From: a virus
Reading direction: 5' to 3' (one strand)
Virus record (IMG/VR): IMGVR_UViG_3300031276_000012
Span: 1-25,865 of that record
DNA: 25,865 nucleotides
Position 1 is the first letter of the stretch. The number at the start of each line of letters is the position of its first letter. The notes under the pieces were generated by a model. That model searched no databases, was not told where the DNA came from, and saw only the letters and a program-made list of their open reading frames with translations. Shown here one piece after another: positions 3,206 through 25,696 of the stretch. The position numbers and the translations under genes are program-made.

Positions 3206-4230
3206 GGCGAAACCTCCAGGGTGAGCTGTACCATTTCGCGCTGGGCGGCCTCGATGCGGGCGCGGGCAGCCTTGAATCGTCGCGCGTTGATCTCGATGCC
3301 TACAAAGTCGCGGCCCAACTGGGCGCACGCCTCGCCCGTCGTTCCCCCGCCCATCATCGGATCGAGCACCAGGTCGCCGGGGTTGCTCGTGGTGGCGATG
3401 ATCCGCTCCATCAGCGCGGGCGGCTTGGGCGTCGGGCACGATGGATCACGCGGCGCGGGCGGGAATTGCCACACGCTGGATACCTTGCCGGGGTTGTTGA
3501 ACGTATAGCGCAAGTCCTCATACTCCCGCCGCAAGTCCTCATACTCCCGCCGCAGGTCCTCATACTCCCGCCGCAGGTACTCACCGCCATGATCATGTGC
3601 GTTGGCATAGGCGCGCAACTGGTGGTAATGTTCTCGTGTGGGCAGCGACCATTGTGTGGTCAGACCGATGTAGTGTGACGCCATCCCGCCACCGCTCAAG
3701 GACGATCCTACGGCTTTGTTAAGATCGCGCCGTGTCAGCCCCGCCCGTTTCCATTCCCCCGCCAAGTACGCCCGCAGCGGCTCAAAGATGAACCCGCGTT
3801 CCCGGTCGCATTGCGCCGTCCATTCGCCCTCGTCGGCGTGGTAGATGAGATACTCGGCCATCACCTGAAAGGAGCGCAACGAGTCAACCACGGTGTAGCC
3901 GTCCATGAAACCTTGCATGTCGCCCGCGTCGTTGTACTTGTCCCACGTCACCCAGTTGATCAGCCCATAGCCATGCGTCTCTATCATATCGGCTATGCGG
4001 CCCAAGATGCGCGGGTCTTTGTGGCTCACCCAAAACGCACCGTTTGGCGCAAGGGCGCGGGCGCATTCTGCGATCCACTGCTCGCACCACGCCAGATAGT
4101 CGGCGGGTGTCATCTTGCAGAAAATGCCGATGTTGTAGGGCGGATCGACAAAGCACAGTTTGACACTCCCCGCCTCAATCCCCGGTAGCACATCCAGGCA
4201 GTCGCCCAGGCGCAAGTCAACGCTCGTCAA
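3202..4230 (-). CDS. Beta-class DNA methyltransferase with REYEDLR heptad repeats
   Basis: A 342-residue S-adenosylmethionine-dependent amino-methyltransferase (N6-adenine or N4-cytosine). Motif IV DPPYN is at residues 29-33 and motif I DPMMGGGTTG at 291-300; the order IV then I defines the beta class. The middle part (about 100-215) should hold target recognition. Residues 222-242 are three copies of REYEDLR, encoded by 21-bp repeats at 3510-3572, and would form a short coiled coil. The start is TTG at 4230, preceded by GGGGAGGGCG and overlapping the previous stop (TTGA). It is the last gene of the primase operon. No partner restriction enzyme is visible, so self-protection against host restriction is the likely role (inference). 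Confidence 0.85.
   Translation of the reverse strand: MTSVDLRLGDCLDVLPGIEAGSVKLCFVDPPYNIGIFCKMTPADYLAWCEQWIAECARALAPNGAFWVSHKDPRILGRIADMIETHGYGLINWVTWDKYNDAGDMQGFMDGYTVVDSLRSFQVMAEYLIYHADEGEWTAQCDRERGFIFEPLRAYLAGEWKRAGLTRRDLNKAVGSSLSGGGMASHYIGLTTQWSLPTREHYHQLRAYANAHDHGGEYLRREYEDLRREYEDLRREYEDLRYTFNNPGKVSSVWQFPPAPRDPSCPTPKPPALMERIIATTSNPGDLVLDPMMGGGTTGEACAQLGRDFVGIEINARRFKAARARIEAAQREMVQLTLEVSP
3510..3587 (-). repeat. 21-bp in-frame tandem repeats in methyltransferase
   Basis: Three 21-bp units (3510-3530, 3531-3551, 3552-3572), the first two identical and the third differing by one base, followed by a degenerate partial unit. Each encodes one REYEDLR heptad. Copy number could vary by slippage without breaking the frame. 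Confidence 0.9.
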
Positions 4231-5817: not shown

Positions 5818-5905
5818 TCACATCCCCGGCAGGCGCACGGGTAGGGGCTGCTCCAGGCGCGGGATAATGTGCTCGTCACAGTATGCCCGGCTCAACTTGC
5901 GCGAT
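5818..5905 (-). pseudogene. Displaced C-terminal coding tail of the methyltransferase
   Basis: The minus-strand frame encodes LSRAYCDEHIIPRLEQPLPV... and a stop at 5818. This closely matches the current C-terminus of the methyltransferase at 6444-6510 (LSKTYCDEHIIPRLEAPIQV...): 16 of 22 aligned residues are identical while the DNA has diverged. No start or upstream gene body is attached to it. The simplest reading is that this is the original 3' end of the methyltransferase gene, cut off when the HNH gene inserted. The HNH promoter now overlaps it. Confidence 0.75.
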
Positions 5906-5925
5906 TGTCCCTCTTGTGGTATAAT
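5897..5925 (+). promoter_or_regulatory. Promoter for the HNH endonuclease gene
   Basis: Plus-strand TATAAT (5920-5925) preceded by TTGTGG, with a weaker -35 TTGCGC at 5897-5902 and a 17-bp spacer. The HNH ribosome site and ATG follow 25 nt later, so the gene has its own expression signal against the direction of the surrounding operons. Confidence 0.65.
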
Positions 5926-5949
5926 AGACGAAAAGATAGGAGGGTTACT

Positions 5950-6462
5950 ATGCCAGTCAAGTGTGTCTGCCAAGTCTGTGGGAAAGAATTTTATGTCCCG
6001 CCCAGCGATTACAAAAGGGGACGCGGCAAACATTGCTCTAGAAAATGCCTTGCTGTTACAAAGACAAAAGAGATGCGCGGGAATCAGCGTGCTAAAGGGC
6101 ACGGGCCGAATAGTACGACATTCAAGCCAGGCCATGTGCCTTGGAATAAAGACCTGAAAGGTATCCACCTGTCTCCAGACTCCGAGTTCCAAGAGGGCGA
6201 TGTGCCTGCTAATCGTGTTCCTGTGGGCACTGTAACCATCCGAACCGATAAAGGGGGGCACCAACGCAGGTGGATCAAGCTCCATAATAGCCCACGAGGA
6301 TGGAGTGAGTTTGCCCGTGTAGTTTGGATAAATGAGCACGGCAGTATCCCTGACGACATGGTAATTCATCATATCGATCAAGATCCATTGAATGACGACG
6401 TTGAGAATCTTGAGCTGTTGACAAGGGCAGAGCATATTGAGGTTCATAGGAGACGTACCTGA
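5950..6462 (+). CDS. HNH homing-type endonuclease with zinc finger and NUMOD-like region
   Basis: A 170-residue product starting MPVKCVCQVCGKEF, with AGGAGGGTT upstream. The N-terminal zinc finger uses Cys7, Cys10, Cys29 and Cys33. A NUMOD3-like DNA-binding stretch follows (FKPGHVPWNKDLKG, about 58-71). The C-terminal HNH nuclease shows His140-His141, NLELLTRAEH and His162/His166. Free-standing HNH genes of this type cut intron-less or insertion-less alleles to spread themselves. It is the only plus-strand gene in the left arm, is more AT-rich than its neighbours, and its 3' end overlaps the convergent methyltransferase 3' end by 19 bp. The flanks show it is inserted into that gene. Confidence 0.88.
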   Translation: MPVKCVCQVCGKEFYVPPSDYKRGRGKHCSRKCLAVTKTKEMRGNQRAKGHGPNSTTFKPGHVPWNKDLKGIHLSPDSEFQEGDVPANRVPVGTVTIRTDKGGHQRRWIKLHNSPRGWSEFARVVWINEHGSIPDDMVIHHIDQDPLNDDVENLELLTRAEHIEVHRRRT

Positions 6463-12790: not shown

Positions 12791-13118
12791 AGCGGGTGTC
12801 GTTCTGGGTGTTCGCCAGGTCTATGGCGTCGGGCAGGCGGCAGAAATAGCCCCACGCCTTCCACCATTCGGCCAATGCCAGCAAGGTGGTTCCATAGCCC
12901 CCGCTTACAAAGGCGTGAAATGCCTCGCGATCCTCGTTGATGCCGATGCCCTTGTGCGCGGCCAGGGCGACGAACGTGTTGAACGACATTTTGACGGGTG
13001 CCGTCGCTTGCGCTGCGATCAGCGGCAGGAGTTCGGCTGCGCGCTTCCATAGCCTAGCCTCGGCGCGGTACTGGCGGGATTCCTGTTGGAGTTGCTCGAT
13101 GCGATCTTGTGTGCTCAT
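12774..13118 (-). CDS. Hypothetical early protein, 114 residues
   Basis: Product MSTQDRIEQLQQESRQYRAE..., with an N-terminal coiled coil followed by a helical domain (MSFNTFVALAAHKGIGINED, ALAEWWKAWGYFCRL). The ATG at 13118 overlaps the stop of the RHH protein gene (ATGA). Not recognised with confidence. Confidence 0.6.
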   Translation of the reverse strand: MSTQDRIEQLQQESRQYRAEARLWKRAAELLPLIAAQATAPVKMSFNTFVALAAHKGIGINEDREAFHAFVSGGYGTTLLALAEWWKAWGYFCRLPDAIDLANTQNDTRYAGAW

Positions 13119-13339
13119 TTCGTCTCCTGTTCGACGGTGTACTCGACGCCCGAGTCGATCAACTCGGACGCCGGGTGCTGGCGTGTCAGGTACGGCGGCC
13201 AAAGGTCGTATTCCTTGGCCTTCTCGCGGATCAGGTCGCGCACCACCTCGGACATAGTGCGCTTTTCCAGGTCGCAGATTGCGACCAGCACGGCCTTGAG
13301 TTCTGGTGACATCATAACGATGACGGTCTCTGATTTCAT
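13115..13339 (-). CDS. Ribbon-helix-helix (CopG/Arc-like) DNA-binding protein
   Basis: A 74-residue product. The N-terminal strand MKSETVIVMMSPELKAVLVA is followed by ICDLEKRTMSEVVRDLIREK; a beta strand, helix, turn (RTMSE) and second helix is the ribbon-helix-helix pattern. These proteins act as dimers and bind short palindromic sites, often in tandem about one helical turn apart. The divergent control region at 14165-14317 carries such tandem palindromes, so this is a candidate regulator of it (inference). AGGAGAGGG precedes the ATG. Confidence 0.7.
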   Translation of the reverse strand: MKSETVIVMMSPELKAVLVAICDLEKRTMSEVVRDLIREKAKEYDLWPPYLTRQHPASELIDSGVEYTVEQETK

Positions 13340-13359
13340 GGTCCCTCTCCTTTTTTCGT

Positions 13360-13584
13360 CTAGCCCGAAAGCTTATTTGTGCTGTCTAATGCGGTCGCGA
13401 TTAGCTCCAACCGATGCGCCACCAAGCGATACCCATCATCCCAATTGCGCTGAAAGCTCGCTCTAATTTCGTCCCATGTCATCATGCGGTACATGTGTCC
13501 CTGGGCGAGACATCGCTTGCATAATTCGCGCTGATGTTCCTGGCTCTTGATGTTGCCACATTGTGGGCAGGCTATGTTGGTCAT
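13360..13584 (-). CDS. Small zinc-ribbon protein, 74 residues
   Basis: Product MTNIACPQCGNIKSQEHQRE..., with CPQC and CKRC pairs in the first 25 residues and a helical C-terminal half (WDEIRASFQRNWDDGYRLVA). ATGA overlap with the upstream gene (13581-13584). Function unknown. Confidence 0.6.
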   Translation of the reverse strand: MTNIACPQCGNIKSQEHQRELCKRCLAQGHMYRMMTWDEIRASFQRNWDDGYRLVAHRLELIATALDSTNKLSG

Positions 13585-13772
13585 TTGGCCCTCGAGTCAT
13601 ACTTGCGCCCGGCAGCTTGGATCGCCTCGTCGGACCAATAGCGGGCCACATCACAGGGCATCTGGCCATAATCGCGCATCAACCGATACCAACCCGCAAC
13701 CGTAATACCATCGCTCTCGCGGTAAATTCCGGCGTTGTCGCCACCCCAAACCACGCTATATCGCTCGGTCAT
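13581..13772 (-). CDS. Hypothetical small protein, 63 residues
   Basis: Product MTERYSVVWGGDNAGIYRES..., a small mixed alpha/beta protein with WYRLMRDYGQMP and RYWSDEAIQAAGRKYDSR. AGGAGAGGG lies upstream of its start and its end overlaps the next gene by ATGA. Not recognised. Confidence 0.58.
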   Translation of the reverse strand: MTERYSVVWGGDNAGIYRESDGITVAGWYRLMRDYGQMPCDVARYWSDEAIQAAGRKYDSRAK

Positions 13773-13782
13773 GGTCCCTCTC

Positions 13783-14037
13783 CTAGTTTTCTCTCAACCA
13801 TTTGCGCTCGGCCTTGCGGCGGGCATCAAAGCCACCCTCAAACTCTGGCATAACGTCCGCTGCATAAACCCAGTGCGAGTCATTTTGTCCGCAAAGAGGG
13901 CACTTGGCAAAAATCTCAATCCGCGCAGCCTTTGTTCCGCAGAACCCTTGGCGGGTCAATCCTGCTGGGGCGTCGAATATACCATCGCAGCGGTTGCAGT
14001 GGATTGTGGTGCCCTGCGCGATCTTGGTTGAAGTCAT
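13783..14037 (-). CDS. Zinc-ribbon protein, first gene of the leftward early operon
   Basis: An 84-residue product MTSTKIAQGTTIHCNRCDGI..., with CNRC and CPLC pairs (about residues 14-17 and 46-49) making a zinc ribbon, and a basic C-terminus. AGGAGAGGCG precedes the ATG at 14037, about 35 nt after the expected transcription start. As the first gene expressed from a strong early promoter it may be a regulator or host-takeover factor (inference). Confidence 0.62.
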   Translation of the reverse strand: MTSTKIAQGTTIHCNRCDGIFDAPAGLTRQGFCGTKAARIEIFAKCPLCGQNDSHWVYAADVMPEFEGGFDARRKAERKWLREN

Positions 14038-14079
14038 TTCGCCTCTCCTTGTCGGTACTTGCTCTCAATCTCTACTCAT

Positions 14080-14108
14080 ATTATAAACGATTTTTATATA
14101 ATTGTCAA
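14080..14108 (-). promoter_or_regulatory. Strong leftward early promoter
   Basis: Minus-strand TTGACA (14103-14108), 17-bp AT-rich spacer, and TATAAT (14080-14085): full consensus. It drives the long run of small genes from 14037 to 9643. Unlike the other early promoters it is followed by only a short, unstructured leader, and it lacks the TGG extension. Confidence 0.85.
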
Positions 14109-14164
14109 TCCCCAATCTGCCAAATCCCGAAATATTTAAGGTTCGGCATACTATGGCGCGTACT

Positions 14165-14317
14165 ACCTAGTATACTATGGGTATACCGCGGGGTATACCA
14201 GAGATTCGACTAGAGCGGCGTGGGGGCCGATGTTTCTCGGTTTAGGTATGGTAGTATCAAAAAGGCTAGAGATTCCCTGCCAAACTTGACAAACTAGTAT
14301 ACTAGTGGTATACTAGG
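14165..14317. promoter_or_regulatory. Operator cluster: five GTATAC palindromes
   Basis: GTATAC occurs at 14170, 14181, 14193, 14297 and 14308. The first lies in TAGTATACTA, the next two in GGTATACC, and the fourth in CTAGTATACTAG. Spacing is 11, 12, 104 and 11 bp, about one helical turn within each group. The last two cover the spacer and the -10 of the rightward promoter. This is the expected layout for cooperative repressor binding, with a possible loop between the two groups. Confidence 0.75.
14286..14314 (+). promoter_or_regulatory. Rightward promoter for the lysis/structural unit, covered by operators
   Basis: TTGACA (14286-14291), 17-bp spacer containing the 12-bp palindrome CTAGTATACTAG and ending in TGG, then TATACT (14309-14314). 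Occupation of the overlapping palindromes would block RNA polymerase. Confidence 0.82.
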
Positions 14318-14341
14318 TGTGAACGTTAACGGATTCGGCCA

Positions 14342-14420
14342 GTGAGGTGCTGTATGTCTCACACAACGGCTGTCCATAGGAACGCCTGGAGGGTGGCTTT
14401 GCCGTCTCTGGGCGTTTTTT
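14342..14420 (+). terminator. Attenuator-like terminator before the first rightward gene
   Basis: A small hairpin (14342-14362, GTGAG/CTCAC) is followed by a strong stem, 14381-14391 with 14406-14416 (AACGCC...GGCGTT core, about 12 pairs with wobbles), and six T residues at 14415-14420. A 5-bp element ACGGC (14366-14370) can pair with GCCGT (14401-14405) inside the terminator loop, giving a weak version of the crossed 1-2-1'-2' layout of the early leaders. The first gene starts at 14445, so read-through must occur for it to be expressed from this promoter. Confidence 0.7.
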
Positions 14421-14444
14421 GTTTTGGGGTGAGGAGGTGATTTG

Positions 14445-14756
14445 ATGGTTGAAACCGGGTTGCTGGCCGAGGTTCTCAAGTGGCTCATGTCCGCCGGCGC
14501 GGGCGTGGTCACGTTTTTTGTTATGGAGAAGGTGCCACAGTTGGGGGAGATGAGCAGCGAGGCCAAGCGCTACATTTCTATCGCACTGGCTGCCGCGCTT
14601 TCGATGGGTGCCTATGCCGGGGCCGTGGGGCTGGGCTATGAACCGATGCCCGCCGACGTGCAGGCTTGGGTGGAATCGCTTTTTGCCGTCGCCTTTGTGG
14701 CGACCGGGCTATCGCAGGTGATGCACGGCAAGCTCGTGCTCGCCGAGGGAGACTGA
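14445..14756 (+). CDS. Holin-like small membrane protein
   Basis: A 103-residue product MVETGLLAEVLKWLMSAGAG..., with three hydrophobic segments (about 8-30, 42-64 and 75-92) and a charged end, a size and layout typical of phage holins, which permeabilise the inner membrane at lysis. GGAGG lies 7 nt before the ATG. It is first in the rightward unit and is followed by an XhlA-like protein, a common lysis pairing. No endolysin is visible nearby, so holin is inferred from topology and context. Confidence 0.62.
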   Translation: MVETGLLAEVLKWLMSAGAGVVTFFVMEKVPQLGEMSSEAKRYISIALAAALSMGAYAGAVGLGYEPMPADVQAWVESLFAVAFVATGLSQVMHGKLVLAEGD

Positions 14757-14789
14757 CGGACTATCGGGGGATAGAGCGTCGGAGACATT

Positions 14790-15158
14790 ATGATGACACC
14801 TGGCGGCGTGACGGTAGACAACGGGAATGGCCGCCTGAGAGATGCGCAACTGGAGGCCAAGGTCGAGCGCCTGAGCGATAAGGTGGCGGATCTGCAAGGC
14901 TCCATCGAGGCGCTGCGGTTGGAGTTTATGAACCATCGCGGCGAGACGGGCGCACGGCTGGAACACATCGGCGAGATGGTACACGGCAACACGTCCAGCC
15001 TCAACAAGTTCTGCGCCGTCGAAACACTCAAGTGGGAAAACCACGCAGACCTGCACAGCCGCGAGCACGCGAACCTCAAAACGTGGTCGGCTATCGTTAG
15101 CGCCTGTACCGGCTTCGTGGCGGGCATTCTCGGGTGGTTCGGCGGGCCGTCAGGATAG
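14790..15158 (+). CDS. Coiled-coil protein with C-terminal membrane anchor (XhlA-like)
   Basis: A 122-residue product: a long N-terminal coiled coil (DAQLEAKVERLSDKVADLQG and onward), a central histidine-rich part, and a single C-terminal hydrophobic helix (WSAIVSACTGFVAGILGWFG). This is the architecture of haemolysin XhlA-type lysis accessory proteins. GGAGAC precedes the ATG, and the second codon is also ATG. It sits beside the holin-like gene. Alternative: a tail or spanin-like protein. Confidence 0.6.
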   Translation: MMTPGGVTVDNGNGRLRDAQLEAKVERLSDKVADLQGSIEALRLEFMNHRGETGARLEHIGEMVHGNTSSLNKFCAVETLKWENHADLHSREHANLKTWSAIVSACTGFVAGILGWFGGPSG

Positions 15159-15181
15159 TCGGGGGAAGAAAAGGGCATATC

Positions 15182-16042
15182 GTGCGGCGAATAGTGGCCG
15201 ACATCTCGGACACGCACGGCGGGCACAAGGCGGGGTTGCTGAATCCCGATACCACGCTCTACGACGAGGACGAGCGCGGCAACCTGGTGCCCTGGAAGCC
15301 ACAGCTTACGCACATCCAGCTTTATCTGTGGCGCTGTTATCTGGACGATAGGGACAGTACGATCAAGCTGGCCGGGGACGATGAAATTGTCTTGATCCAC
15401 TGTGGCGACCTGACGCAAGGGGTGACGTTCCCGGAGCATCTTGTATCTACCCGGCGATACGACCAGATCGAGATCGCATTTAACAACCTGATACCGTGGC
15501 TCGAACTGCCGAACGTGCGCACGGTGCGCATCGTCAAGGGGACCGGGGTGCACGTCATGGGCGAGGGCAGCACCGAGATGGTAGTGGCGCGGATGCTGCA
15601 GGAGCGTTATCCGGGCAAGGACGTCGAGGCGTTATACCACGGCCTATTCGACGTTGACGGGGTGACTATCGACGCTGCGCACCATGGGCCATTTCCTGGC
15701 AGCCGGGTGTGGCTCAAGGGCAATTCGGCGCGCTATTACCTGCGCGATCTGATGCTGGGCGAGCAAGTGAGCGGGCAAGTCCCGCCGCGCGTGGTGCTGC
15801 GGGCGCATTATCACGAGTGGGTGCACGAGTACCTGGAACTGCCCTGCCGGGGCGGGACGGACAAGGCCGATCTGATCATCACGCCGTCCTATTGTGGGGT
15901 AGGCGACCACGCACGAAAGGCCATGCGCAGCCTAAACCGGCAGACACATGGCATGGTGGCGCTGGAGATCGACGGCGGCAAACTGGCAGGTATTCACCCG
16001 TTCAAGCGAACGCTGGACCTGCGCACCAAGGAGCGGCTATGA
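15182..16042 (+). CDS. Calcineurin-like metallophosphoesterase
   Basis: About 286 residues starting at GTG 15182 (MRRIVADISDTHGGHK); the open frame extends upstream to a GTG at 15134, overlapping the previous gene. Metal-site motifs are visible: DISDTHG (about 7-13), HCGDLTQG, the KGTGVH segment in place of the usual GNHD, AAHHG and RAHYHEW. These are the conserved blocks of calcineurin-type phosphoesterases, which cleave phosphodiesters or phosphomonoesters with two metals. Related proteins recur in phage genomes near structural genes; the substrate is unknown. The altered GNHD block is worth noting, though His is retained. Confidence 0.8.
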   Translation: MRRIVADISDTHGGHKAGLLNPDTTLYDEDERGNLVPWKPQLTHIQLYLWRCYLDDRDSTIKLAGDDEIVLIHCGDLTQGVTFPEHLVSTRRYDQIEIAFNNLIPWLELPNVRTVRIVKGTGVHVMGEGSTEMVVARMLQERYPGKDVEALYHGLFDVDGVTIDAAHHGPFPGSRVWLKGNSARYYLRDLMLGEQVSGQVPPRVVLRAHYHEWVHEYLELPCRGGTDKADLIITPSYCGVGDHARKAMRSLNRQTHGMVALEIDGGKLAGIHPFKRTLDLRTKERL

Positions 16043-16269
16043 GTCCCAAGGACAAGGCGGCGCTGCTGGCCGAGATCGTCGAGATGACGCAGGTGCGCGT
16101 GGTACAGCCGAGCGACATCAGGGTCACAGACTACATGACGGCGACGGGCATGAGTAACGCAACGTCGCGCGCGCGGTTGAATAGCCTGGTCAAGCAGGGC
16201 ACACTCAAAACGGCGACGGCGTTTGACCCGGAGTCGTGCCGTCGCGTTCGGGTATGGTTCAAGGCGTGA
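16039..16269 (+). CDS. Small winged-helix DNA-binding protein
   Basis: A 76-residue product MSPKDKAALLAEIVEMTQVR..., with a helix-turn-helix (VTDYMTATGMSNATSRARLN) followed by SLVKQGTLKTATAF and RRVRVWFK as a wing. It overlaps the metallophosphoesterase stop by ATGA. Probably a sequence-specific DNA-binding regulator; target unknown. Confidence 0.65.
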   Translation: MSPKDKAALLAEIVEMTQVRVVQPSDIRVTDYMTATGMSNATSRARLNSLVKQGTLKTATAFDPESCRRVRVWFKA

Positions 16270-16494
16270 GACCACCGGCAAGGGTTCCCTCTTCTCCCTT
16301 GCGCGGTTTCCTCCTTTCCTCGCCGGGGCCGGCTGAGGCGGGCGGTGGGTTGGCGATAGGGCAGCGGGTGTAGGCTGGCCCCGGCTGAGGGGGAATAGAC
16401 AAACGATGAGTGGGGCTAGGGTAGCACCCGAAAAGCGGACATCCGCACCGCCTGCCCCACTTGAAAAGTTGCGGAGTCACAAGCGGAGGTGACA
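16270..16494. other. Intergenic region with hairpins, a G-rich run and repeat copy 1
   Basis: This 225-bp gap holds a GCAAGGG/CCCTTGC hairpin (about 16277-16300) with a T-poor tail, possibly a weak terminator. A 9-bp inverted repeat (16322-16330 with 16377-16385) encloses four GGG runs (16340-16368) that could form a G-quadruplex. The first copy of the 25-bp direct repeat is at 16374-16398. A 28-codon frame (16406-16492, MSGARVAPEK...) ends just before the next gene and has no clear ribosome site; I do not call it a gene. Confidence 0.5.
16374..16398 (+). repeat. 25-bp direct repeat, copy 1
   Basis: Identical over 25 bp to 17954-17978 (core CCCCGGCTGAGGGGG, which can form a CCCC/GGGG mini-hairpin). 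The two copies flank the methyltransferase/nuclease pair. Confidence 0.92.
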
Positions 16495-17592
16495 ATGTTG
16501 GCGGAAGTTGCGCAACTGGAACTAACGACAAACGAACAGGCGGAGCTTGAACGCTGCGAGGCCGTGATTGATCGCGGACTAAAAACGTTTGTTGACGTGG
16601 GGAATGCTCTTTTAACAATTCGAGATGAGCGGCTGTATCGGGAGCAATGGGGTACGTTCGAGGCGTACTGTTGGGACAGGTGGGGCTTAAAGCGGTTTCG
16701 GGCTTATGAGTTAATGGAGGCCGCGACAGTTGTTGCAAATGTAGGAAATTTCCTACATTTACCAGCGCCGGAGCGAGAATCACACGCCGCTCCATTAGCC
16801 CCCCTAGAACCCGACCAACAGCGCGAAGCCTGGGCGATGGCTGTAGAAACTGTGCCAGAGGGCAAGAAAATAACCGGGGCACACATCAAGCGGGTTGTTG
16901 AGCAGATAACCCGCCCCGATCACGGGATTATAACCTGTCCTGCTTGTGGTGAATTGTACGATAGCCAGACGTTCAATCATTGCCCGTATTGCTACAAGCG
17001 CGCTCATGGCCTAAAGGGGTGGGTAGAGGGGCTACCTGAAAAGGTAAATGGTGTGCCCCACGTCGCGCACAACAGCGGCAACAACGAGTGGTACACGCCG
17101 CCAGAGTACATCGCAGCGGCGCGCCAAGTGATGGGCGACATCGATCTCGATCCGGCATCGTCTGAGATTGCCAACCAGACAGTACAAGCCAAGACGTTTT
17201 TCAGCCAAGAGGACGACGGCCTGTTGTGGGACTGGCGGGGCCGCGTGTGGATGAATCCGCCCTATGCGTCCAACCTGATCGGGCTGTTTGCGGACAAGCT
17301 GGCGAATCACGTTAGATTCGGCGATGTGACAGAGGCGTGCATACTCGTCAACAACGCGACAGAGACGGCGTGGTTCAATACGCTTCTGGATGTGGCGTCA
17401 TGCGTGTGCTTTATCCGGGGACGCGTAAAGTTCGTGGATGTGGACGGCAACCCAAGCGGCGCGCCATTGCAGGGGCAGGTGGTGCTTTACATCGGGCCGA
17501 ACGTAAAAGCGTTCGGAGGCGTGTTCTCTAGGTTTGGAGTGGTGTTATATGCGGGGGCAGATTCAAAACAGGGAAAGAGCCAGACAGCTTAG
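16495..17592 (+). CDS. Dam-type N6-adenine methyltransferase fused to a DNA-binding N-terminal domain
   Basis: A 365-residue fusion. Residues 1-140 are helical (TFVDVGNALLTIRDERLYRE, DRWGLKRFRAYELM) and resemble the ParB/KfrA-like N-terminal regions seen in phage proteins. Residues 148-166 form a zinc finger (Cys148, Cys151, Cys163, Cys166). Residues 195-350 match the phage Dam family (NNEWYTPPEYIAAARQ, DIDLDPASSEIAN, RVWMNPPY with the catalytic NPPY at about 254-257), which methylates adenine in DNA. GGAGG lies 5 nt before ATG 16495. A perfect 24-bp palindrome lies inside the N-terminal coding part. It overlaps the nuclease gene downstream. Likely role: protecting phage DNA from host restriction. 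Confidence 0.82.
   Translation: MLAEVAQLELTTNEQAELERCEAVIDRGLKTFVDVGNALLTIRDERLYREQWGTFEAYCWDRWGLKRFRAYELMEAATVVANVGNFLHLPAPERESHAAPLAPLEPDQQREAWAMAVETVPEGKKITGAHIKRVVEQITRPDHGIITCPACGELYDSQTFNHCPYCYKRAHGLKGWVEGLPEKVNGVPHVAHNSGNNEWYTPPEYIAAARQVMGDIDLDPASSEIANQTVQAKTFFSQEDDGLLWDWRGRVWMNPPYASNLIGLFADKLANHVRFGDVTEACILVNNATETAWFNTLLDVASCVCFIRGRVKFVDVDGNPSGAPLQGQVVLYIGPNVKAFGGVFSRFGVVLYAGADSKQGKSQTA
16737..16760. repeat. Perfect 24-bp palindrome inside the methyltransferase gene
   Basis: Arm AAATGTAGGAAA followed immediately by its exact reverse complement, with no loop, in a codon frame reading NVGNFLHL. It is more AT-rich than the surroundings. It could be a protein-binding site or a cruciform/hairpin element. 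Confidence 0.9.
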
Positions 17593-17941
17593 GGATTTCA
17601 CGGGGCTGCAATTTGGCAGCATAACGCCAACCGACGTTGACGGCTTTGTCGAGTTTCGGGATAAGCTGTTTGTGTGGATTGAGGCCAAGCTAGGAGGGCA
17701 AAGCATCCCGTCTGGGCAACGTTTAGCACTAGAGCGCCAATGCGATGCCGTGAGTGAGACGGGGCGCATGGCTGTTGTGTTAGTGATTGATCATGACACT
17801 AGCCCAAGTGAAGACATTAACTTTGCGTCTTGCCTGGTACGTGAATATCGTCTTGAGCAGGAATGGAGAGAGCCGCTTATGCCTATCACTTGTAGAGCAG
17901 CCATTGAGATACTACTCACAAAGGCGGGGATTCTCTTGTGA
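17549..17941 (+). CDS. PD-(D/E)XK-type nuclease-like protein
   Basis: A 130-residue product MRGQIQNRERARQLRDFTGL... The signature is TPTDVDGFVEF (Asp29/Asp31) and FVWIEAKLGG (Glu45-x-Lys47), an acidic residue followed by E-x-K on a strand, as in the restriction-like nuclease fold. GQRLALERQC and a hydrophobic strand (MAVVLVIDHD) follow. Its start overlaps the end of the Dam-type methyltransferase gene by 44 bp. It could be a resolvase, recombination nuclease or restriction partner; the pairing with a methyltransferase is suggestive but the family is widespread in phages. Confidence 0.7.
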   Translation: MRGQIQNRERARQLRDFTGLQFGSITPTDVDGFVEFRDKLFVWIEAKLGGQSIPSGQRLALERQCDAVSETGRMAVVLVIDHDTSPSEDINFASCLVREYRLEQEWREPLMPITCRAAIEILLTKAGILL

Positions 17942-17953
17942 ATAGGGGGGAGA

Positions 17954-17978
17954 GCTGGCCCCGGCTGAGGGGGAATAG
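17954..17978 (+). repeat. 25-bp direct repeat, copy 2
   Basis: Exact copy of 16374-16398. Here the GGGGG of the repeat may double as the ribosome site for the GTG start at 17979. Confidence 0.92.
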
Positions 17979-18356
17979 GTGAGGAAAACGAGTGTAGAAT
18001 CGAGCGATCGGAGCTTCGAGATAGTGCGGCCCGCCAGTGATGCGAGCGGCCTCCAGCTCGAATGCGACGCCTGGGACACCCTGAGCGACGAGGCGTGGAC
18101 CCTGTTCGATTCGTCTCTTGGCGAGAGCGACGCGACTGAAAACAGACAGATAGGGGGGCCGTTATGGCGGCGCGCGCCTGATTCGTGGAACGATATTGAC
18201 GTTGCGCCCGGTGCTGACACCGGCCTATCGTCGAGTGATCGTCGATTGGTAGACGATATGGTGCTCCGTGCGCGATGTTGGTCGCCAGATGAACGGCGCA
18301 AACTGGGGTATCACCTGATCGCGTGCGGGGCGGAGTTGATGGAGGGCGACGAGTGA
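17979..18356 (+). CDS. Hypothetical protein, 125 residues
   Basis: Starts at GTG 17979 (MRKTSVESSDRSFEIVRPAS...). Acidic, with conserved-looking aromatic residues (LQLECDAWDTLSDEAWTLFD) and a helical C-terminus (SSDRRLVDDMVLRARCWSPD). The GGGGGAATAG of the direct repeat lies just before it. Its stop overlaps the next GTG start (GTGA). Not recognised; part of the pre-terminase gene set. Confidence 0.58.
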   Translation: MRKTSVESSDRSFEIVRPASDASGLQLECDAWDTLSDEAWTLFDSSLGESDATENRQIGGPLWRRAPDSWNDIDVAPGADTGLSSSDRRLVDDMVLRARCWSPDERRKLGYHLIACGAELMEGDE

Positions 18357-18562
18357 GTGCCTTCTGGGCCACAGTTGCCAAGGTCCAAACTCTTGCGGAT
18401 TCGGGCATTAGGGTGACCTTGGACCTGCCCGAGACGGCAATCGTCCAAGCCGCTGAGTTGATGACCTACAAGCGTGAAGGTGTGGTGTTGGATTTTGAGG
18501 CGAGACCACGGAAAGACGATGACAGAGGAAATCCAAGCGAGTCCAAAAAACTCCATATCTGA
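18353..18562 (+). CDS. Small conserved-looking phage protein before terminase
   Basis: A 69-residue product beginning at GTG 18353 (MSAFWATVAKVQTLADSGIR...), chosen because the GTGA overlaps the upstream stop. Pattern: VTLDLPETAIVQAAELMTYK, a strand-helix unit, then GVVLDFEARP and a charged tail. The spacing suggests translational coupling. It overlaps the start of the small terminase gene by 44 bp. Function unknown. Confidence 0.58.
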   Translation: MSAFWATVAKVQTLADSGIRVTLDLPETAIVQAAELMTYKREGVVLDFEARPRKDDDRGNPSESKKLHI

Positions 18563-19055
18563 GCAGCTAGGGGCTGTTCTGGGACAGCTTTCGACAGACC
18601 AAATCCGGTTCGTCGTGGCGCGTCTGGAGAAACAGACAGACAAAGAGGCTGCTGAATCCCTGGAGATGAAACCGGATACCGTCTATCACTGGAAGAGCCG
18701 GGACAAGGCACCGATTGATGAGGCGCTGCGGCTGATGGCAGAGGACGGTCTTGTTGTGGCTCAGCATGTCCGCCGGCGCAACCTGGCAAAGGCCATGTTG
18801 GTCAAAGTCGGCGGCTTGGATAGCAACAGTGAAAATATCCGCCAAGGTGTTGCCACTGAGATCATCGAATGGGAAATGGGCAAGCCCACACAGCGCGCCG
18901 AGCTATCCGGCAAGGACGGCGGGCCGATTGAGACAAGCGTCACACTAACCGATGAAAAAAGAGATCGCGCACTATCTTCACTCGCTGACGCCATCGCAAG
19001 TTGTATACCTGGAGTCGGTGAGAGCGGGGACGGCGCTGTGGGCACCGCAGAGTAG
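18519..19055 (+). CDS. terS: Terminase small subunit-like protein
   Basis: A 178-residue product MTEEIQASPKNSISEQLGAV... The middle has a helix-turn-helix, TDKEAAESLEMKPDTVYHWK (about residues 46-65), of the kind used by small terminases to recognise packaging sites on phage DNA. A helical region (VRRRNLAKAMLVKVGGLDSN) and an acidic C-terminal part follow. It lies directly before and overlaps the large subunit, the standard terS-terL order. Assignment rests on HTH and context. The C-terminal 100 bp overlap the large-subunit frame. Confidence 0.68.
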   Translation: MTEEIQASPKNSISEQLGAVLGQLSTDQIRFVVARLEKQTDKEAAESLEMKPDTVYHWKSRDKAPIDEALRLMAEDGLVVAQHVRRRNLAKAMLVKVGGLDSNSENIRQGVATEIIEWEMGKPTQRAELSGKDGGPIETSVTLTDEKRDRALSSLADAIASCIPGVGESGDGAVGTAE

Positions 19056-21528
19056 GCCGCAATGGCTGGCCTACCTATCGCCCGCCGATGAACTGTTTTA
19101 CGGCGGGGCGGCAGGTGGGGGAAAGGCGCTTATGATTGAGACGCCATTACCAACGCCCACTGGCTGGACCACAATGGCAGATGTGGAAGCCGGTGATTGC
19201 CTGTTGGATGAAAACGGTCAGCCCTGTATCGTGTTGGCAGCCACTGGCATAATGCTTGGGCATCCATGCTATCGGATAACATTTAGTGATGGCGCGTCAT
19301 TGGTGGCAGATGAGGGCCACCAGTGGCACACAATGACGGATAGCGAGCGAAGCAAGGCACATCGACGCACGCCAGAATACCGGGCCAATCGTCGCGCCAA
19401 TCGTCCCAGCCGAAGCGCTGGGCGGCGTCCAGACTTAGTGATGGCAAACAAAGAGCGTGATTATGCCTTGCTAGATCCGCCGATGGGCAAGGTGCGCACA
19501 ACGCAAGACATTTATCATACGCTGAAGGTGCGAGGGCGCACCAATCATTCTATAGGGGTGTGCCAGTCCCTTGAATTGCCCGAGGCCGATTTGCCTATTG
19601 ATCCCTATATCTTTGGTGCGTGGCTAGGCGATGGCAGCAGCTACAAGGCAGAAATAACAACCGCCGATCCAGAGATAATTGATTCTATAGAAGAAGAATA
19701 CGAAACCAAGCGGCGGTCAGAAATTGCTTATGGCATCTATGGCCTGTTAACAACCTTAAAAGAATTGGGCCTTATCGGTCAAAAGCGAATCTTGCCCATT
19801 TATCTACGGGGATCTACCGGGCAAAGATTAGCGCTCCTTCAAGGATTGATGGACACCGATGGCTATTGTGACCCACGAGGCCAATGTGAGTTTACCACAA
19901 CTAGCCCGGCATTGCGCGATGGCATGTTCGAGTTATTGGGTACATTGGGGATAAAGGTCGCTATTTCCGAAGGGCGCGCGACATTAAACGGGCGCGATTG
20001 CGGGCCAAAATACCGGCTCAAGTTCCTTACCTCTTTGCCAGCTTTCCGCCTGAAGCGCAAATTAGAGGGCCAAAAGGGAAAAGGCTTTCGAGGAACGCAT
20101 GAGCAGCGGTACATTGTCGGCGTTGAGCCGATTGAGAGCGTTCCCGTTCGATGTATTAAGGTAAGTTCGCTGTCTGGGATTTTTCTTGCCGGTACATCAT
20201 TTATCCCAACCCACAACAGCGACTTGCTTGAGGGCCTAGCGATAACAGCACATGAAAAATCGATCATCTTCCGGCGTGAGTATACGCAGCTCACCGGGGC
20301 GACGGGCCTGATCGAGCGGAGCCATGAACTGCTAGACGACCACGCGCACTACAATGCGCAAGAGCACGTATGGCGCGACATTCCCGACGGGCGGTCGCTC
20401 GACTTTGGGGCAGTACAGCACGAGAAAGACAAGCGGCGCTACCAGGGCCGACCGCATGACCTGATCGCCTTTGACGAGGTGACAGAGTTCACAGAGTCGC
20501 AGTACCGTTTTCTGATCGGCTGGCTGCGCACGACCACAGAAGGCCAGCGCTGCCGGGTGGTGGCAACGGGCAACCCGCCGACACATGCGGAGGGCGAGTG
20601 GGTGATCCGCTACTGGGCACCGTGGCTGGATGATACGCACCCCAGCCCGGCGCAACCGGGCGAGCTACGATGGTTCGCGGTCATCAAGGGCAAGAGCCTG
20701 GAGGTGGATGGTCCGGAACCGTTCGAGCAGGACGGCGAAACGGTGATCCCGCAATCGCGGACGTTCATCCCGGCCCGGCTGAGCGATAACGTGTATCTGA
20801 TGCGCACCGGGTATGAGCAGACGTTGCAGGGGCTTCCGGAGCCGCTGCGCTCACAACTGCTTTACGGTGACTTTACGGTCGGGACGCAAGATGACCCGTG
20901 GCAGACGATACCGACGGCCTGGGTGCGGGCGGCCTTTGACCGCTGGGAGCAGAGAGAACGGCCCGACACGCCGCTGACTATGCTGGGCGTGGATGTGGCA
21001 AGGGGCGGAGATGACCAGACGGTGTTGAGTAGGCGATACGATAACTGGTTTGCGCCACTGGAGAAACACGACGGACGCGCGACGCCTGACGGTCCCAGCG
21101 CGGCGGCATTGGCGATTATGGCGCTGGGCGATGACGATGCACAGATCAACATCGACGTGATCGGCGTGGGAGCATCGGCCTATGACGACCTGGCCAACCA
21201 GAGCATCCGGGTGACGGGTGTCAATTTTGCGGAGAAAAGCGACGCGCGCGACAGGTCGGGCCGGCTGGCCATGCGCAACAAGCGGGCTGAAGCGTATTGG
21301 GGAATGAGGGAAGCGCTTGACCCGATCAAAGGCGACGATATCGCCCTACCAAGAGACAATGAACTACTGGCCGACTTGTGTGCGCCACGCTGGAAGATCA
21401 CGACGGGGGGCATATTGATTGAGAGCAAAGAGGATATCAAGGCGCGTCTTGGGCACTCCCCAGATTGTGGCGACGCCGTGGTGTTGGCCCGAATGGAAGG
21501 GCGCAAAATCCTGATAGGCTGGGTGTAG
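18952..21528 (+). CDS. terL: Terminase large subunit with in-frame intein
   Basis: 858 codons including a 364-residue intein (19126-20217); the spliced protein would be about 494 residues, a normal size. It packages phage DNA using an ATPase and a nuclease. The P-loop AAGGGK is interrupted before Ser423, which restores GGGKS after splicing. Walker B is LIAFDEVTEF, and a motor coupling motif ATGNPP follows. The RNase H-like nuclease begins at MLGVDVARGGDDQT, with SPDCGDAVVLA near the end. Start is uncertain: ATG 18952 has no good ribosome site; GTG 19018, with GGAG just upstream, is an alternative that leaves the motor intact. Splicing is required for an active ATPase. Confidence 0.9.
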   Translation: MKKEIAHYLHSLTPSQVVYLESVRAGTALWAPQSRPQWLAYLSPADELFYGGAAGGGKALMIETPLPTPTGWTTMADVEAGDCLLDENGQPCIVLAATGIMLGHPCYRITFSDGASLVADEGHQWHTMTDSERSKAHRRTPEYRANRRANRPSRSAGRRPDLVMANKERDYALLDPPMGKVRTTQDIYHTLKVRGRTNHSIGVCQSLELPEADLPIDPYIFGAWLGDGSSYKAEITTADPEIIDSIEEEYETKRRSEIAYGIYGLLTTLKELGLIGQKRILPIYLRGSTGQRLALLQGLMDTDGYCDPRGQCEFTTTSPALRDGMFELLGTLGIKVAISEGRATLNGRDCGPKYRLKFLTSLPAFRLKRKLEGQKGKGFRGTHEQRYIVGVEPIESVPVRCIKVSSLSGIFLAGTSFIPTHNSDLLEGLAITAHEKSIIFRREYTQLTGATGLIERSHELLDDHAHYNAQEHVWRDIPDGRSLDFGAVQHEKDKRRYQGRPHDLIAFDEVTEFTESQYRFLIGWLRTTTEGQRCRVVATGNPPTHAEGEWVIRYWAPWLDDTHPSPAQPGELRWFAVIKGKSLEVDGPEPFEQDGETVIPQSRTFIPARLSDNVYLMRTGYEQTLQGLPEPLRSQLLYGDFTVGTQDDPWQTIPTAWVRAAFDRWEQRERPDTPLTMLGVDVARGGDDQTVLSRRYDNWFAPLEKHDGRATPDGPSAAALAIMALGDDDAQINIDVIGVGASAYDDLANQSIRVTGVNFAEKSDARDRSGRLAMRNKRAEAYWGMREALDPIKGDDIALPRDNELLADLCAPRWKITTGGILIESKEDIKARLGHSPDCGDAVVLARMEGRKILIGWV
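19126..20217 (+). mobile_element. Class 3 intein with LAGLIDADG endonuclease in the terL P-loop
   Basis: Residues 59-422 of the terminase frame. The first residue is Ala, not Cys or Ser. Trp125 (in DEGHQWHT), Cys401 (RCIKVS) and Thr420 (PTHN) fit the W-C-T set that defines class 3 inteins, where the block F cysteine starts splicing. The C-terminal HN and +1 Ser are intact. Two LAGLIDADG motifs are present, IFGAWLGDGS (about 220-229) and LLQGLMDTDG (about 295-304), so the homing endonuclease looks complete. The DNA is more AT-rich than the flanking terminase, consistent with a separate origin. Confidence 0.9.
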
Positions 21529-21532
21529 GCAT

Positions 21533-23068
21533 ATGAGCATTATAGACAAGTGGCTAGAGCGGGCGGTATCAGGATTGGGATTCGTCAAGGCGGACACAAT
21601 CCCGCGTAACACAGAACTGGGCTACATCCTGAGCGGGGAATCATCGCCCGGCTCTGGCCTGTTGAACGTTAACAACTGGAGTCAGGATCAGCTAGAGCGG
21701 CTGGCGGCCTGCTGCACCTGGGTGGCGAGTGACATCAACGTCATCGCCAACACCCTGGCCTCGACGCCATTCGGGGTGTACCAGAGAACGGGCGAGCGTG
21801 ACGAGGCGATAGAGGCGCACCCGTTCGAGGTGCTGCTAGAGTTCCCATGCCCATTTTGGGATCAAGAGCTGTTATTGACGTATACGGCGTGGTGGTACAG
21901 CCTGCGCGGTGAGGCATACTGGATGCTCGTACCCGACAAAGGGGGCGGCCTGGCGCAAATCTGGCCGCTACCCGCAAGCCGGATGCGGCCCATCCCAGAT
22001 GCGCAGAATTACATCCGGGGATTCGGTTACACCTCGACGCGGGACGGGCAAGAACGGTTTTTGCCGCCTGAGTCGGTGGCGTTCTTTCGCCGGGCCAACC
22101 CGTTCGACTATCACCGTGGCATGTCGCCCATCAGCGCGTACAAGTTGGAAATGGCAAGCGACCGGTCCGCGGCAGAGTGGAACAAAGAGGCATATGACAA
22201 GGGGCTAACACTCGACGCCATCCTGAGCGTCCCGCCCGAGATGTCACCCCGGCAGTTCGAGGCCGTCAAAGAGGAGATCCGGCACGACATCGAGACGGAG
22301 CATAAAAGATGGATCATCGCCCGCGCCGGAGATCTGAAAGCTACTACTCTCGGCATGACCGCCAAGGATGCGGAGTACCTGGGCAGCCGCGTATTCAACA
22401 GCACAGTGATCGACCGGGTGTATGGCTTCCCAGAGGGATTTTGGAGCGTCCAGGCCAACCGGGCCAACGCCGAGGCGGCAAAGGCGACGGTCATCGAGAA
22501 CACCGTCTGGCCGATGTGCACGCGGTTCGCACGGACGATCACTGATCGCATCATTCGCCCGTTCTACGGTGACGACCTGCGGGGCCGGTTTGACGACATC
22601 CGCCCGCGTGACCGTTCGCTGCTGGTGCAGGAGCGGCGCGTATACTGGCAGGTGATGAGCATAGACGAGGCGCGGGCTGAGCTGGAGCTCGACCCGCTTG
22701 ACGACCCGATGCTAGGCGCAACGCTCGTGCCACTGGCCGTCCAACAGCAGGGCGGGGGCGTGGGCAGCATTGGCGGCATTGTCGCCGAGGGGCAGCAGCC
22801 GCAAGAGGAGCCGGGCGTGAGCAAGGCCGCACAAGACGACCTGCGCAAGTGGCAGCGCATCGCCCTGCGGCGGCTCAAGGACAGCGGCGATCCGGCATAT
22901 GCGTTTGACTCTGAGCACATCCCGCCAGACGTCAGTCTTGGCGTGTTGGACGCACTCAAGTCGGCCACGACTGAAGAGGAGGTCAGGGCGGCTTTTGCCG
23001 CCGGGTTTTGCCACGACCACGACCACGGCGGGGAAACAGTTTTTCACGACTGGGCAAACTATCCGTAG
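21533..23068 (+). CDS. Portal protein (HK97-type)
   Basis: A 511-residue protein. Portal-family blocks: NWSQDQLERLAACCTWVASD near residue 50, then NVIANTLASTPFGVY, LLLTYTAWWYSLRGEAYWML, SVAFFRRANPFDYHRGMSPI, and a long helix with AAEWNKEAYDKG. The C-terminal clip/barrel region contains NRANAEAAKATVIENTVWPM. It forms the dodecameric channel at the head vertex. It follows terL by 4 nt and precedes the MuF gene, the standard order. The C-terminal 57 codons overlap the next frame. Confidence 0.85.
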   Translation: MSIIDKWLERAVSGLGFVKADTIPRNTELGYILSGESSPGSGLLNVNNWSQDQLERLAACCTWVASDINVIANTLASTPFGVYQRTGERDEAIEAHPFEVLLEFPCPFWDQELLLTYTAWWYSLRGEAYWMLVPDKGGGLAQIWPLPASRMRPIPDAQNYIRGFGYTSTRDGQERFLPPESVAFFRRANPFDYHRGMSPISAYKLEMASDRSAAEWNKEAYDKGLTLDAILSVPPEMSPRQFEAVKEEIRHDIETEHKRWIIARAGDLKATTLGMTAKDAEYLGSRVFNSTVIDRVYGFPEGFWSVQANRANAEAAKATVIENTVWPMCTRFARTITDRIIRPFYGDDLRGRFDDIRPRDRSLLVQERRVYWQVMSIDEARAELELDPLDDPMLGATLVPLAVQQQGGGVGSIGGIVAEGQQPQEEPGVSKAAQDDLRKWQRIALRRLKDSGDPAYAFDSEHIPPDVSLGVLDALKSATTEEEVRAAFAAGFCHDHDHGGETVFHDWANYP

Positions 23069-24518
23069 AGACCTGGACGGCAACGAGGACCCGAATGGCG
23101 GGGCCAAGATCGCCGCCGAGGCGCGGATCGAAAACGCTCTTTACCAATTCTGGCGAGAACAGCTAGAGCGCATCAAGGACCGGCTGCGCGGGGGTATTCC
23201 GCAAAGTCGGCGCGCCATCGAGGACTTGGCCGACCGGCTCGATAGCAAGTTCTGGGACAGTGAGGATCGGCTTCTGTTGGCCTTGCTGCTGCCCGAACTG
23301 AGCGACATGAGCGAGGCGGCGGCCCAGGCACTCGTCGAACAGATGGAGAGCCAGTACACCGTCGGCGTAGACTGGACGCTGGTCAACGCCGATGCCGTGG
23401 ACTGGGCGCGCAAGTATGCCTATGACCTGGTGAAAGGCATTGACAACACGACCAAGCAGGGCCTACAACGCCACGTCGGTGCCTGGATCGAAACACCGGG
23501 CGCGACAATGGGCGATCTGTTCGACAAGTTGGAGGGCCTGTACGCGTTTGACCGCAAGAGGGCCAAACTCGTCGGCGTCACAGAAGTGACCAGGGCATAC
23601 GCGCAAGGGACCAAGATCGCAGCGCGGGGCTATGAGGACGCGGGCCTGTTCACTTGGCGGAAGACTTGGCACACTAACAACGATGGGTTAGTCTGCCCCC
23701 TCTGTCAGGCGCTACACAATGAGAGCGTGGACGGACTGGACACGCCATTCTCGGATGGCACGATTGACCCACCATTGCATCCGAACGGGCGTTGTTGGAC
23801 AACTCTTGAGCCGGTGCTGGTGACGGCGGCGGCTGAGGAGGAGCAAGAGGCGGAGCCGGGACTATTACAAGGGGCCGAGACCATCATTGATCGTTTTCAA
23901 CCTGGATCAATGCGAGACACAAGACGGGCACAAGGCGTTTACGATATCATCAGTGAAACCGATGCAGAGACAGCCAAGATATTCCTGACGCAAGGAATCG
24001 AACCTAGTTTCAAGCCTGATATAGGCGAGGTCACATCATACGCACCCGGTCAGGGTATTGAACGCAAGGGCCTATATGTTGCGAACGCTGAGGCTTTCAG
24101 CAAGGGAAGTTTCGGCAAGGTGCGAATGTATTTGACTGCTCTTAGGGATCAGCTTCGTTCACCGGCGGAGATGACACAACTCGGCCGTGAGTCTGTGGAT
24201 GATGTTCTAGGAACAGAAAACGGAGCAATTACAGAAGGGGCATTACCTAAAAGGGCAATAGTTGCTATAGAGGCGGCTGAGTATGAAGATGGCAAATGGC
24301 AATGGCGAACCTATACACCAGATCAATATCGGGAGAAATTAGGCATACCGGCAGATTTTCCCAAGTTGCCATCTGTATCTGAATATCGCTCATGGGCAGA
24401 ACAAAACGCCAGCTCGCTCAGGCTTTCGCAAGAAGACGTTGAAGATTTGGCGCATGATTATAACAGGGGTAGTCTTGAGGACAAACGATGGCTCGCAGAG
24501 GAAGCGGAACTAATATGA
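22899..24518 (+). CDS. MuF-type head morphogenesis protein with variable C-terminal domain
   Basis: Open frame of 539 codons. Residues about 58-320 match Mu gpF-like minor head proteins (helical N-terminus, VTEVTRAYAQGTKIAARGYE, HTNNDGLVCPLCQALHNESV, HPNGRC). From about 325 to the end is an extra, more AT-rich domain (FLTQGIEPSFKPDIGEVTSY, GLYVANAEAFSKGSFGKVRM, WRTYTPDQYREKLG). MuF proteins with swapped C-terminal toxin domains are known in temperate phages; an ADP-ribosyltransferase-like fold is possible here but not shown. The true start is uncertain: ATG 22899 lies 170 bp inside the portal gene without a clear ribosome site, and no ATG or GTG exists nearer the conserved RDLDG. A +1 frameshift from the portal is another possibility. 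Confidence 0.8.
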   Translation: MRLTLSTSRQTSVLACWTHSSRPRLKRRSGRLLPPGFATTTTTAGKQFFTTGQTIRRDLDGNEDPNGGAKIAAEARIENALYQFWREQLERIKDRLRGGIPQSRRAIEDLADRLDSKFWDSEDRLLLALLLPELSDMSEAAAQALVEQMESQYTVGVDWTLVNADAVDWARKYAYDLVKGIDNTTKQGLQRHVGAWIETPGATMGDLFDKLEGLYAFDRKRAKLVGVTEVTRAYAQGTKIAARGYEDAGLFTWRKTWHTNNDGLVCPLCQALHNESVDGLDTPFSDGTIDPPLHPNGRCWTTLEPVLVTAAAEEEQEAEPGLLQGAETIIDRFQPGSMRDTRRAQGVYDIISETDAETAKIFLTQGIEPSFKPDIGEVTSYAPGQGIERKGLYVANAEAFSKGSFGKVRMYLTALRDQLRSPAEMTQLGRESVDDVLGTENGAITEGALPKRAIVAIEAAEYEDGKWQWRTYTPDQYREKLGIPADFPKLPSVSEYRSWAEQNASSLRLSQEDVEDLAHDYNRGSLEDKRWLAEEAELI

Positions 24519-24519
24519 T

Positions 24520-24559
24520 AAAAAACCGCTGGGTTTTCCCATTGACGGAAACCCAGCGG
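24520..24559 (-). terminator. Intrinsic terminator of the minus-strand moron gene
   Basis: Arms 24526-24539 and 24547-24559 (CCGCTGGGTTT / AAACCCAGCGG, 13 bp with one bulge), followed on the minus strand by six T residues (24520-24525). It sits 2 bp beyond the stop of the plus-strand MuF gene. There is no T-tract on the plus strand, so it should stop only leftward transcription. Confidence 0.88.
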
Positions 24560-24578
24560 AAAATGTGGGCGGAGAAGT

Positions 24579-24914
24579 TCAAGCGCTGGAGGCTGGCACG
24601 AAGAAGGGGCAAGGTTTCGTAGTGTATTCGTCGGCAATTTCTCGCCATGCCATTTGGGAGCCGCGGCATTTGGTGCGGATAGTATTGTATCTTTCAAATG
24701 CCGCATCGGACGCATCTTGAGCACGTTGATAGATTTCCGCACGCCTTGCCGCGCATTCCGCGACGCGGGCGCAATGGGGCGTAATTTCAAGGACGGTATA
24801 ATGGATGTGGCGTCGAGGATCATAATTGGTTTTTGTTTCTTCTGTATTAGGAAGGCGATAAATGCAGCCCTCTTTGCAGCCAATCAGGGTATATTCAAAA
24901 ATGATATCTGACAT
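24579..24914 (-). CDS. Opposite-strand accessory (moron) gene beside MuF
   Basis: A 111-residue product MSDIIFEYTLIGCKEGCIYR..., with a beta-rich first half, five cysteines, and a helical stretch (ARRAEIYQRAQDASDAAFER). I chose the start at 24914 because GGAGG precedes it. It has its own promoter, structured leader L4 and terminator, reads against the surrounding head genes and is more AT-rich, all marks of a moron. It directly follows the variable MuF C-terminal domain, the usual place for an immunity gene in MuF toxin systems; that role is an inference. No family recognised. Confidence 0.72.
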   Translation of the reverse strand: MSDIIFEYTLIGCKEGCIYRLPNTEETKTNYDPRRHIHYTVLEITPHCARVAECAARRAEIYQRAQDASDAAFERYNTIRTKCRGSQMAWREIADEYTTKPCPFFVPASSA

Positions 24915-24928
24915 AGCGTCCTCCATTC

Positions 24929-25036
24929 AAAAAACCTGCCCACCTCGACCGGCGCTGTTGTCTAGGCAACGCGGGAGGCGGGCAGGTATGAGAACAAAAC
25001 AAAAAGCGCGGGTTGCCGCATTGCCTAGACAGATCC
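24929..25036 (-). ncRNA. Structured leader L4 before the moron (1-2-1'-2' topology)
   Basis: On the minus-strand RNA, arm 1 (plus coordinates 25016-25031) pairs with arm 1' (24959-24974), 16 bp with one G-U. Arm 2 (24975-24987, ACCUGCCCGCCUC) pairs with arm 2' (24934-24946), 13 bp with one mismatch-type change. Arm 2' runs straight into six U residues (24929-24934). It is the most compact and clearest member of the family. Arm 2 resembles that of L1 (ACCUGC/GCAGGU), while arm 1 is unrelated in sequence. Confidence 0.75.
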
Positions 25037-25065
25037 ATTATACCATGGCGAAGGGGCTTTGTCAA
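25037..25065 (-). promoter_or_regulatory. Sigma70-type promoter for the moron gene
   Basis: Minus-strand TTGACA (25060-25065), 17-bp spacer ending in ATGG, TATAAT (25037-25042): full consensus. The -35 overlaps the ATG of the gp10-like gene on the other strand at 25065. Confidence 0.88.
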
Positions 25066-25684: not shown

Positions 25685-25696
25685 GGGATAGAGGGC

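Follow-up and report, generated by a model that had tools for sequence, protein, structure and literature searches.

We identified in an uncultivated virus a cluster of five GTATAC palindromes that probably serves as an operator for a small dimeric repressor encoded by the phage, placed at the boundary between early and late genes, where it would hold a rightward membrane-protein and packaging operon shut. The window analysed here is the entire virus record IMGVR_UViG_3300031276_000012 (25,865 bp), which comes without a completeness estimate and may be a fragment; the true regulator may therefore be missing from it. Nearly all genes to the left of about 14.04 kb are oriented leftward and encode a DnaB-like helicase, a Toprim protein, two N6/N4 methylases, a RecT-like protein and many small ORFs. 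To the right of 14.44 kb the genes run rightward and encode two short membrane-type proteins (the first at 14442-14756, plus strand, with three hydrophobic windows), a metallophosphoesterase-like protein, a winged-helix protein, a Dam-type methylase, a terminase and a portal. The metallophosphoesterase-like assignment of the 302-aa protein is a reading of its sequence, with no match in Pfam or PHROGs. The intergenic region between the divergent operons spans 404 bp (14038-14441), and the cumulative GC skew changes sign at this gene boundary, at the same place as the array. The genes immediately flanking this region (13783-14037 and 14442-14756) had no helix-turn-helix match in Pfam or PHROGs; unlike in the CI/Cro immunity switch of lambda, where divergent repressor genes flank the operator, flanking repressor genes were not found here. 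Two small cysteine-rich, zinc-ribbon-like proteins are encoded close to where the leftward operon starts (13783-14037 and 13360-13584, both on the minus strand), the former with weak, sub-threshold matches and the latter with none.

The initial annotation had described five GTATAC palindromes in two groups with a phasing of about one helical turn, and both features were confirmed. The hexamers occupy positions 14170-75, 14181-86, 14193-98, 14297-302 and 14308-13, with start-to-start spacings of 11 and 12 bp in the upstream group, 104 bp between groups and 11 bp in the downstream group. The separation of the groups, given there as 95 bp, measures 98 bp. Site 1 (AGTATACT, 14169-14176) is a 10-bp palindrome, sites 2 and 3 (GGTATACC, 14180-14187 and 14192-14199) are 8-bp palindromes, site 4 (AGTATACT, 14296-14303) lies at the centre of a 14-bp palindrome within the spacer of the rightward promoter PR, and site 5 (GGTATACT, 14307-14314), a 6-bp palindrome, contains the PR -10. 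A one-mismatch site (GGCATACT, 14145-14152) forms a weaker neighbour upstream of site 1. The record holds 10 copies of GTATAC against 1.93 expected from dinucleotide shuffles. Could chance have produced the array, from promoter hexamers (TATACT) and accidental palindromes within an AT-rich gap? The -10 itself does supply one of the five sites, and some palindromic hexamer occurred five times within 160 bp in 6 of 300 whole-record shuffles. Yet five GTATAC appeared in none of 5,000 dinucleotide shuffles of 14038-14441 (maximum, 3), and one of 5,000 contained a palindromic hexamer of any kind five times. Further, all five sites share the R and Y flanks, and RGTATACY occurs exactly five times in the 25,865 bp, each copy an array site, while the remaining five GTATAC lack these flanks. 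A chance origin is thus extremely improbable.

PR (TTGACA-N17-TATACT, 14286-14314, plus strand) matches the consensus at 11 of 12 positions, with its -35 at 14286-91 and its -10 at 14309-14. As the initial annotation had stated, sites 4 and 5 cover its spacer and -10. Together the two sites form a 23-bp dyad, CTAGTATAC-N5-GTATACTAG (14294-14316), whose 9-bp inverted-repeat arms were attained in only 2 of 1,000 shuffled versions of the promoter. The same unit recurs at sites 1 and 2, the two pairs making one 25-nt repeat with 84% identity, and the pair centres lie 127 bp apart, or 12.1 helical turns of 10.5 bp each. The shuffle statistics and this geometry argue well for the proposed operator for a dimeric repressor at PR, and looping between the site groups over the 127 bp (12.1 turns) is possible. 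The leftward promoter, PL (TTGACA-N17-TATAAT, 14080-14108, minus strand), matches the consensus at all 12 positions and is directed away from the array; the nearest full site begins 62 bp upstream of its -35. The suggestion that the left operon is autoregulated is at best weakly supported: a ribbon-helix-helix (RHH)-like gene does belong to the leftward operon, but no site overlaps PL. Tandem repeats adjoining an AT-rich stretch, where cumulative GC skew turns, might instead be read as iterons of a replication origin or as a partition site. However, the skew also follows divergent transcription, the dyad sits exactly on a promoter and the Pfam matches of the record proteins include no partition ATPase, and we regard an origin or partition function as highly improbable.

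If the array is a transcriptional operator, one repressor dimer would bind each RGTATACY, and adjacent dimers, one turn apart, would bind cooperatively. Two dimers on the 23-bp dyad would obstruct RNA polymerase over the PR spacer and -10, keeping the rightward operon (membrane proteins, metallophosphoesterase-like protein, terminase and portal) silent while PL drives the leftward early operon. Sites 1-3, 127 bp upstream and in phase, might strengthen repression via a short loop or a raised local concentration of the repressor, and a further effect on PL, from about -97 to -125, is possible. At a late stage of infection the repressor would be diluted or removed, and an antiterminator would let polymerase pass a terminator in the PR leader (14381-14420), as at lambda PR'/tR'. 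The binder would be the RHH-like protein (P0002) or, failing that, a repressor encoded outside the record or the winged-helix protein (P0001). One point speaks against an operator of this kind: an early protein that represses late genes needs a relief step, and none is visible in the record. In phi29, too, a regulatory stretch (A2c/A2b-A3) separates early genes transcribed leftward from late genes transcribed rightward; there, however, p4 recognizes sites of a different sequence, and at the late promoter polymerase is recruited, not blocked. If correct, the proposal describes a compact early/late switch with a single operator word, a pair of promoters and two small proteins as candidate regulators, although the array alone breaks no principle of gene regulation.

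We tentatively favor P0002 (74 aa, 13115-13339, minus strand), which would be made early from PL, as the likeliest binder of the array. The initial annotation had called it an RHH protein in the divergent operon, an identity only partly borne out. P0002 matched the Arc-like PHROG 3431 (E 4e-4), and its single-sequence structure model has a strand-helix-helix arrangement (pLDDT 66.6). On the other hand, its Pfam RHH_1 score (16.5 bits) fell under the 20.5 cut-off, and the Foldseek neighbours of the model, although mostly RHH (CopASO and ParG best, then SvtR, Arc and CopG), were not significant, all with E values of at least 1.1. Base contacts in CcdA are made by strand residues R, T and T, which in a hand alignment are absent from the P0002 strand (T-V-I-V-M-M). 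P0002 had no CcdA-family match in Pfam; no relatives were found in the viral collection, and none of the 15 stretches matching the operator pattern encoded one. P0002 is thus only plausible as the binder, because its scores are sub-threshold, its strand differs from that of CcdA and no relative was found. The locus was also considered as a toxin-antitoxin module and rejected, the ORFs adjoining P0002 (12774-13202 and 13360-13584) having no toxin family in Pfam. In a related locus (L095), the gene closest to a pair of divergent promoters on the leftward side is a 61-aa ORF that looks RHH-like by eye, with no Pfam match at 0.01 and no PDB match. A 13-mer (TGATACTACCATA / TGATACTRCYATA), present once in the record (14247-14259, minus strand), also occurs at both L095 promoters; its weight is limited because the motif was defined after both sequences were seen.

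Like RHH operators, the array consists of short palindromic subsites in tandem, spaced by roughly a helical turn at a promoter. Among phage RHH repressors, Arc and Mnt of P22 bind as paired dimers, spaced by 11 bp, to a dyad of about 21 bp, a dimer-pair geometry similar to that proposed for the array, but with a different sequence and different target genes. The 6-bp site of CcdA is reportedly GTATAC, and in an F-type ccd promoter ATATAC-12-GTATAC-11-GTATGT lies immediately before ccdA. The operator of CopASO, from the CP4So prophage of Shewanella, is GTANTAC(N)3GTANTAC (PMC8706911). The operators of both RHH antitoxins are likewise short GTA/TAC palindromes repeated in tandem with roughly helical-turn spacing at a promoter, and the array repeats their tandem GTATAC or GTANTAC core. 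It differs from them in that its sites fall into two groups separated by 104 bp, it lies at the early/late boundary of a phage and no toxin gene was identified. The YefM-YoeB operator also has hexamer-core palindromes, 12 bp from centre to centre and one of them over the -10 (PMC4803016). Its core is TGTACA, however, and that report describes the YefM fold as different, not RHH (PMC4803016). No paper on this GTATAC operator could be recognized by title among the matches listed in a search of mostly non-subscription literature. If confirmed, the array would link the tandem operator type of RHH antitoxins to the control of phage late genes.

Other binders were weighed against P0002. The 76-aa winged-helix protein P0001 (16039-16269, plus strand) lies in the operon under PR and could bind the array to control its own operon. 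Its structure model is confident (pLDDT 84.9) and resembles regulators of the MarR/ArsR type (best E 0.03); yet the phage that encodes its relative (L099, 35% identity) has no GTATAC at its late promoter, and we consider P0001 an improbable binder. A CI-like or other helix-turn-helix repressor encoded outside the record could exercise the same operator function by binding palindromes of 12-14 bp (sites 1 and 4), leaving sites 2, 3 and 5 as secondary sites or, in part, the -10 itself. The lengths of the palindromes at site 4 (14 bp) and site 1 (10 bp) and the missing completeness estimate are consistent with such a protein. So is a locus in an unrelated virus with the same promoter geometry (L054, 5457-5536), where GTATAC-centred 12-bp palindromes (GAAGTATACTTC) lie over an equivalent promoter, TTGACC-N17-TATACT, between divergent genes that read, from their translations, as helix-turn-helix repressors. 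Against it, operators of such proteins usually take up more room than tandem 8-bp palindromes set 11-12 bp apart would allow, and no repressor gene recognized by Pfam or PHROGs flanks the array; an outside repressor seems unlikely.

Besides the putative operator, the PR leader carries a strong intrinsic terminator (14381-14420, plus strand), a hairpin with a dG of -21.0 followed by a T-run, placed between PR and the first rightward gene. The 105-nt stretch at 14321-14425 folds 2.2 sd below its shuffles, and an RNA-family scan of 14000-14500 returned a single, meaningless match (E 0.32, far under the gathering score). In lambda, PR' is followed by a short leader, the intrinsic terminator tR' and the late genes. 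The same order of promoter, leader, intrinsic terminator and late genes is found in the record and in L099, whose terminase is the most similar (TerL 66%) and whose late promoter (TTGACA-N18-TACAAT) precedes a leader of about 110 nt, a terminator with a dG of -23.6 and late genes. The leader terminator thus looks like a second lock resembling PR'/tR', although lambda PR' has no operator over its -10, unlike PR here. The late promoter would then be under two levels of control, the repressor operator and the leader terminator. No antiterminator or Q-like family was among the Pfam matches of the 38 record proteins; the PHROG scan took in 10 proteins of a record that may be a fragment. The L099 late promoter has no GTATAC, so that the promoter-terminator frame is common to the two phages and the array is not. 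Leader terminators were convincing in 4 of the 9 sequences scanned (the record, L099, L090 and L102) and not in the other 5 (L091, L093, L095, L101 and L103), with a hairpin before a short T-run visible by eye in L091 and L101. The upstream part of the L099 late operon also contains a DUF3800-VI RNA (RF02915, 1895-1951, 39.9 bits).

Searches for relatives gave distant ones. The DNA of 13000-25865 had no match among 50,697 phage records, and the first rightward gene had no relative in the viral collection. The portal retrieved one 97% contig, which ends short of the array, and RecT retrieved five loci, none with a GTATAC cluster. The metallophosphoesterase-like protein identified 16 viral and 2 genome loci. 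Upstream of 17 loci of this family none had three GTATAC within 170 bp, a count that omits L094 (same contig as L084), in which L105 shows the same positions as L104, and to which L096 and L106 contribute less than 300 bp of upstream sequence. One of 400 Chloroflexota genomes matched, and it was the assembly already found as a relative. The possibility raised initially, that relatives keep the promoter without conserved GTATAC sites, was thus realized in distant relatives only, and no close relative spanning the region was found; drift of the operator over such distances is expected. Palindromes over the -10 of the relatives reached 6-bp arms in L102 (36 of 1,000 shuffles) and 5-bp arms in L099 (166 of 1,000), with nothing in L095, L101 and L093 (679, 935 and 603 of 1,000, respectively). 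An operator of its own for each relative is only suggestive, because their arms are weak or absent relative to shuffles. The promoter-geometry pattern TTGACNNNNNRGTATACYNNNRGTATACT occurred in 5 viral contigs, two of them near-identical around the site, a number for which we claim no excess over chance. A looser pattern matched at least 80 stretches, and most of those with CTAGTATAC-N-GTATAC lie within long reading frames. In an AT-rich virus (L017, about 960-1150), tandem GTATAC groups flank a tRNA-like stretch beside a gene read as an integrase; ARAGORN detected no tRNA in this stretch, and the groups may be recombination arm sites.

A broader proposal, which we put forward as distinctly doubtful, is that an uncultivated phage lineage, with one relative in a Chloroflexota assembly, keeps a double lock on its late operon. 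An RHH repressor with CcdA/CopASO-like DNA specificity, recruited from toxin-antitoxin control, would hold the late promoter from two phased operators, to which a read-through terminator would be added; the promoter-terminator frame would be kept across relatives and the operator word would change by phage. Repression from tandem operators and late promoters with a leader terminator are already known; finding them joined at such a boundary, here in a phage with no close relatives described, adds a new instance. No cultured relative of the phage was found in this analysis.

Other features of the record lie outside the intergenic region. An int-alpA RNA (RF02996) is predicted at 16409-16474 (plus strand, 45 bits) and, in L099, at 3797-3863 (43.2 bits), in each case flanked by the winged-helix gene and a methyltransferase gene, with no integrase seen nearby. 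An HNH endonuclease gene (5869-6462, plus strand), perhaps a selfish insertion, sits within the leftward operon and overlaps the end of a methylase gene. The methylase encoded at 3202-4230 (minus strand) carries a tandem peptide repeat (YLRREYEDLRREYEDL...) in the middle of the protein, and the terminase large subunit (18952-21528) contains an intein-like insert with a LAGLIDADG domain.
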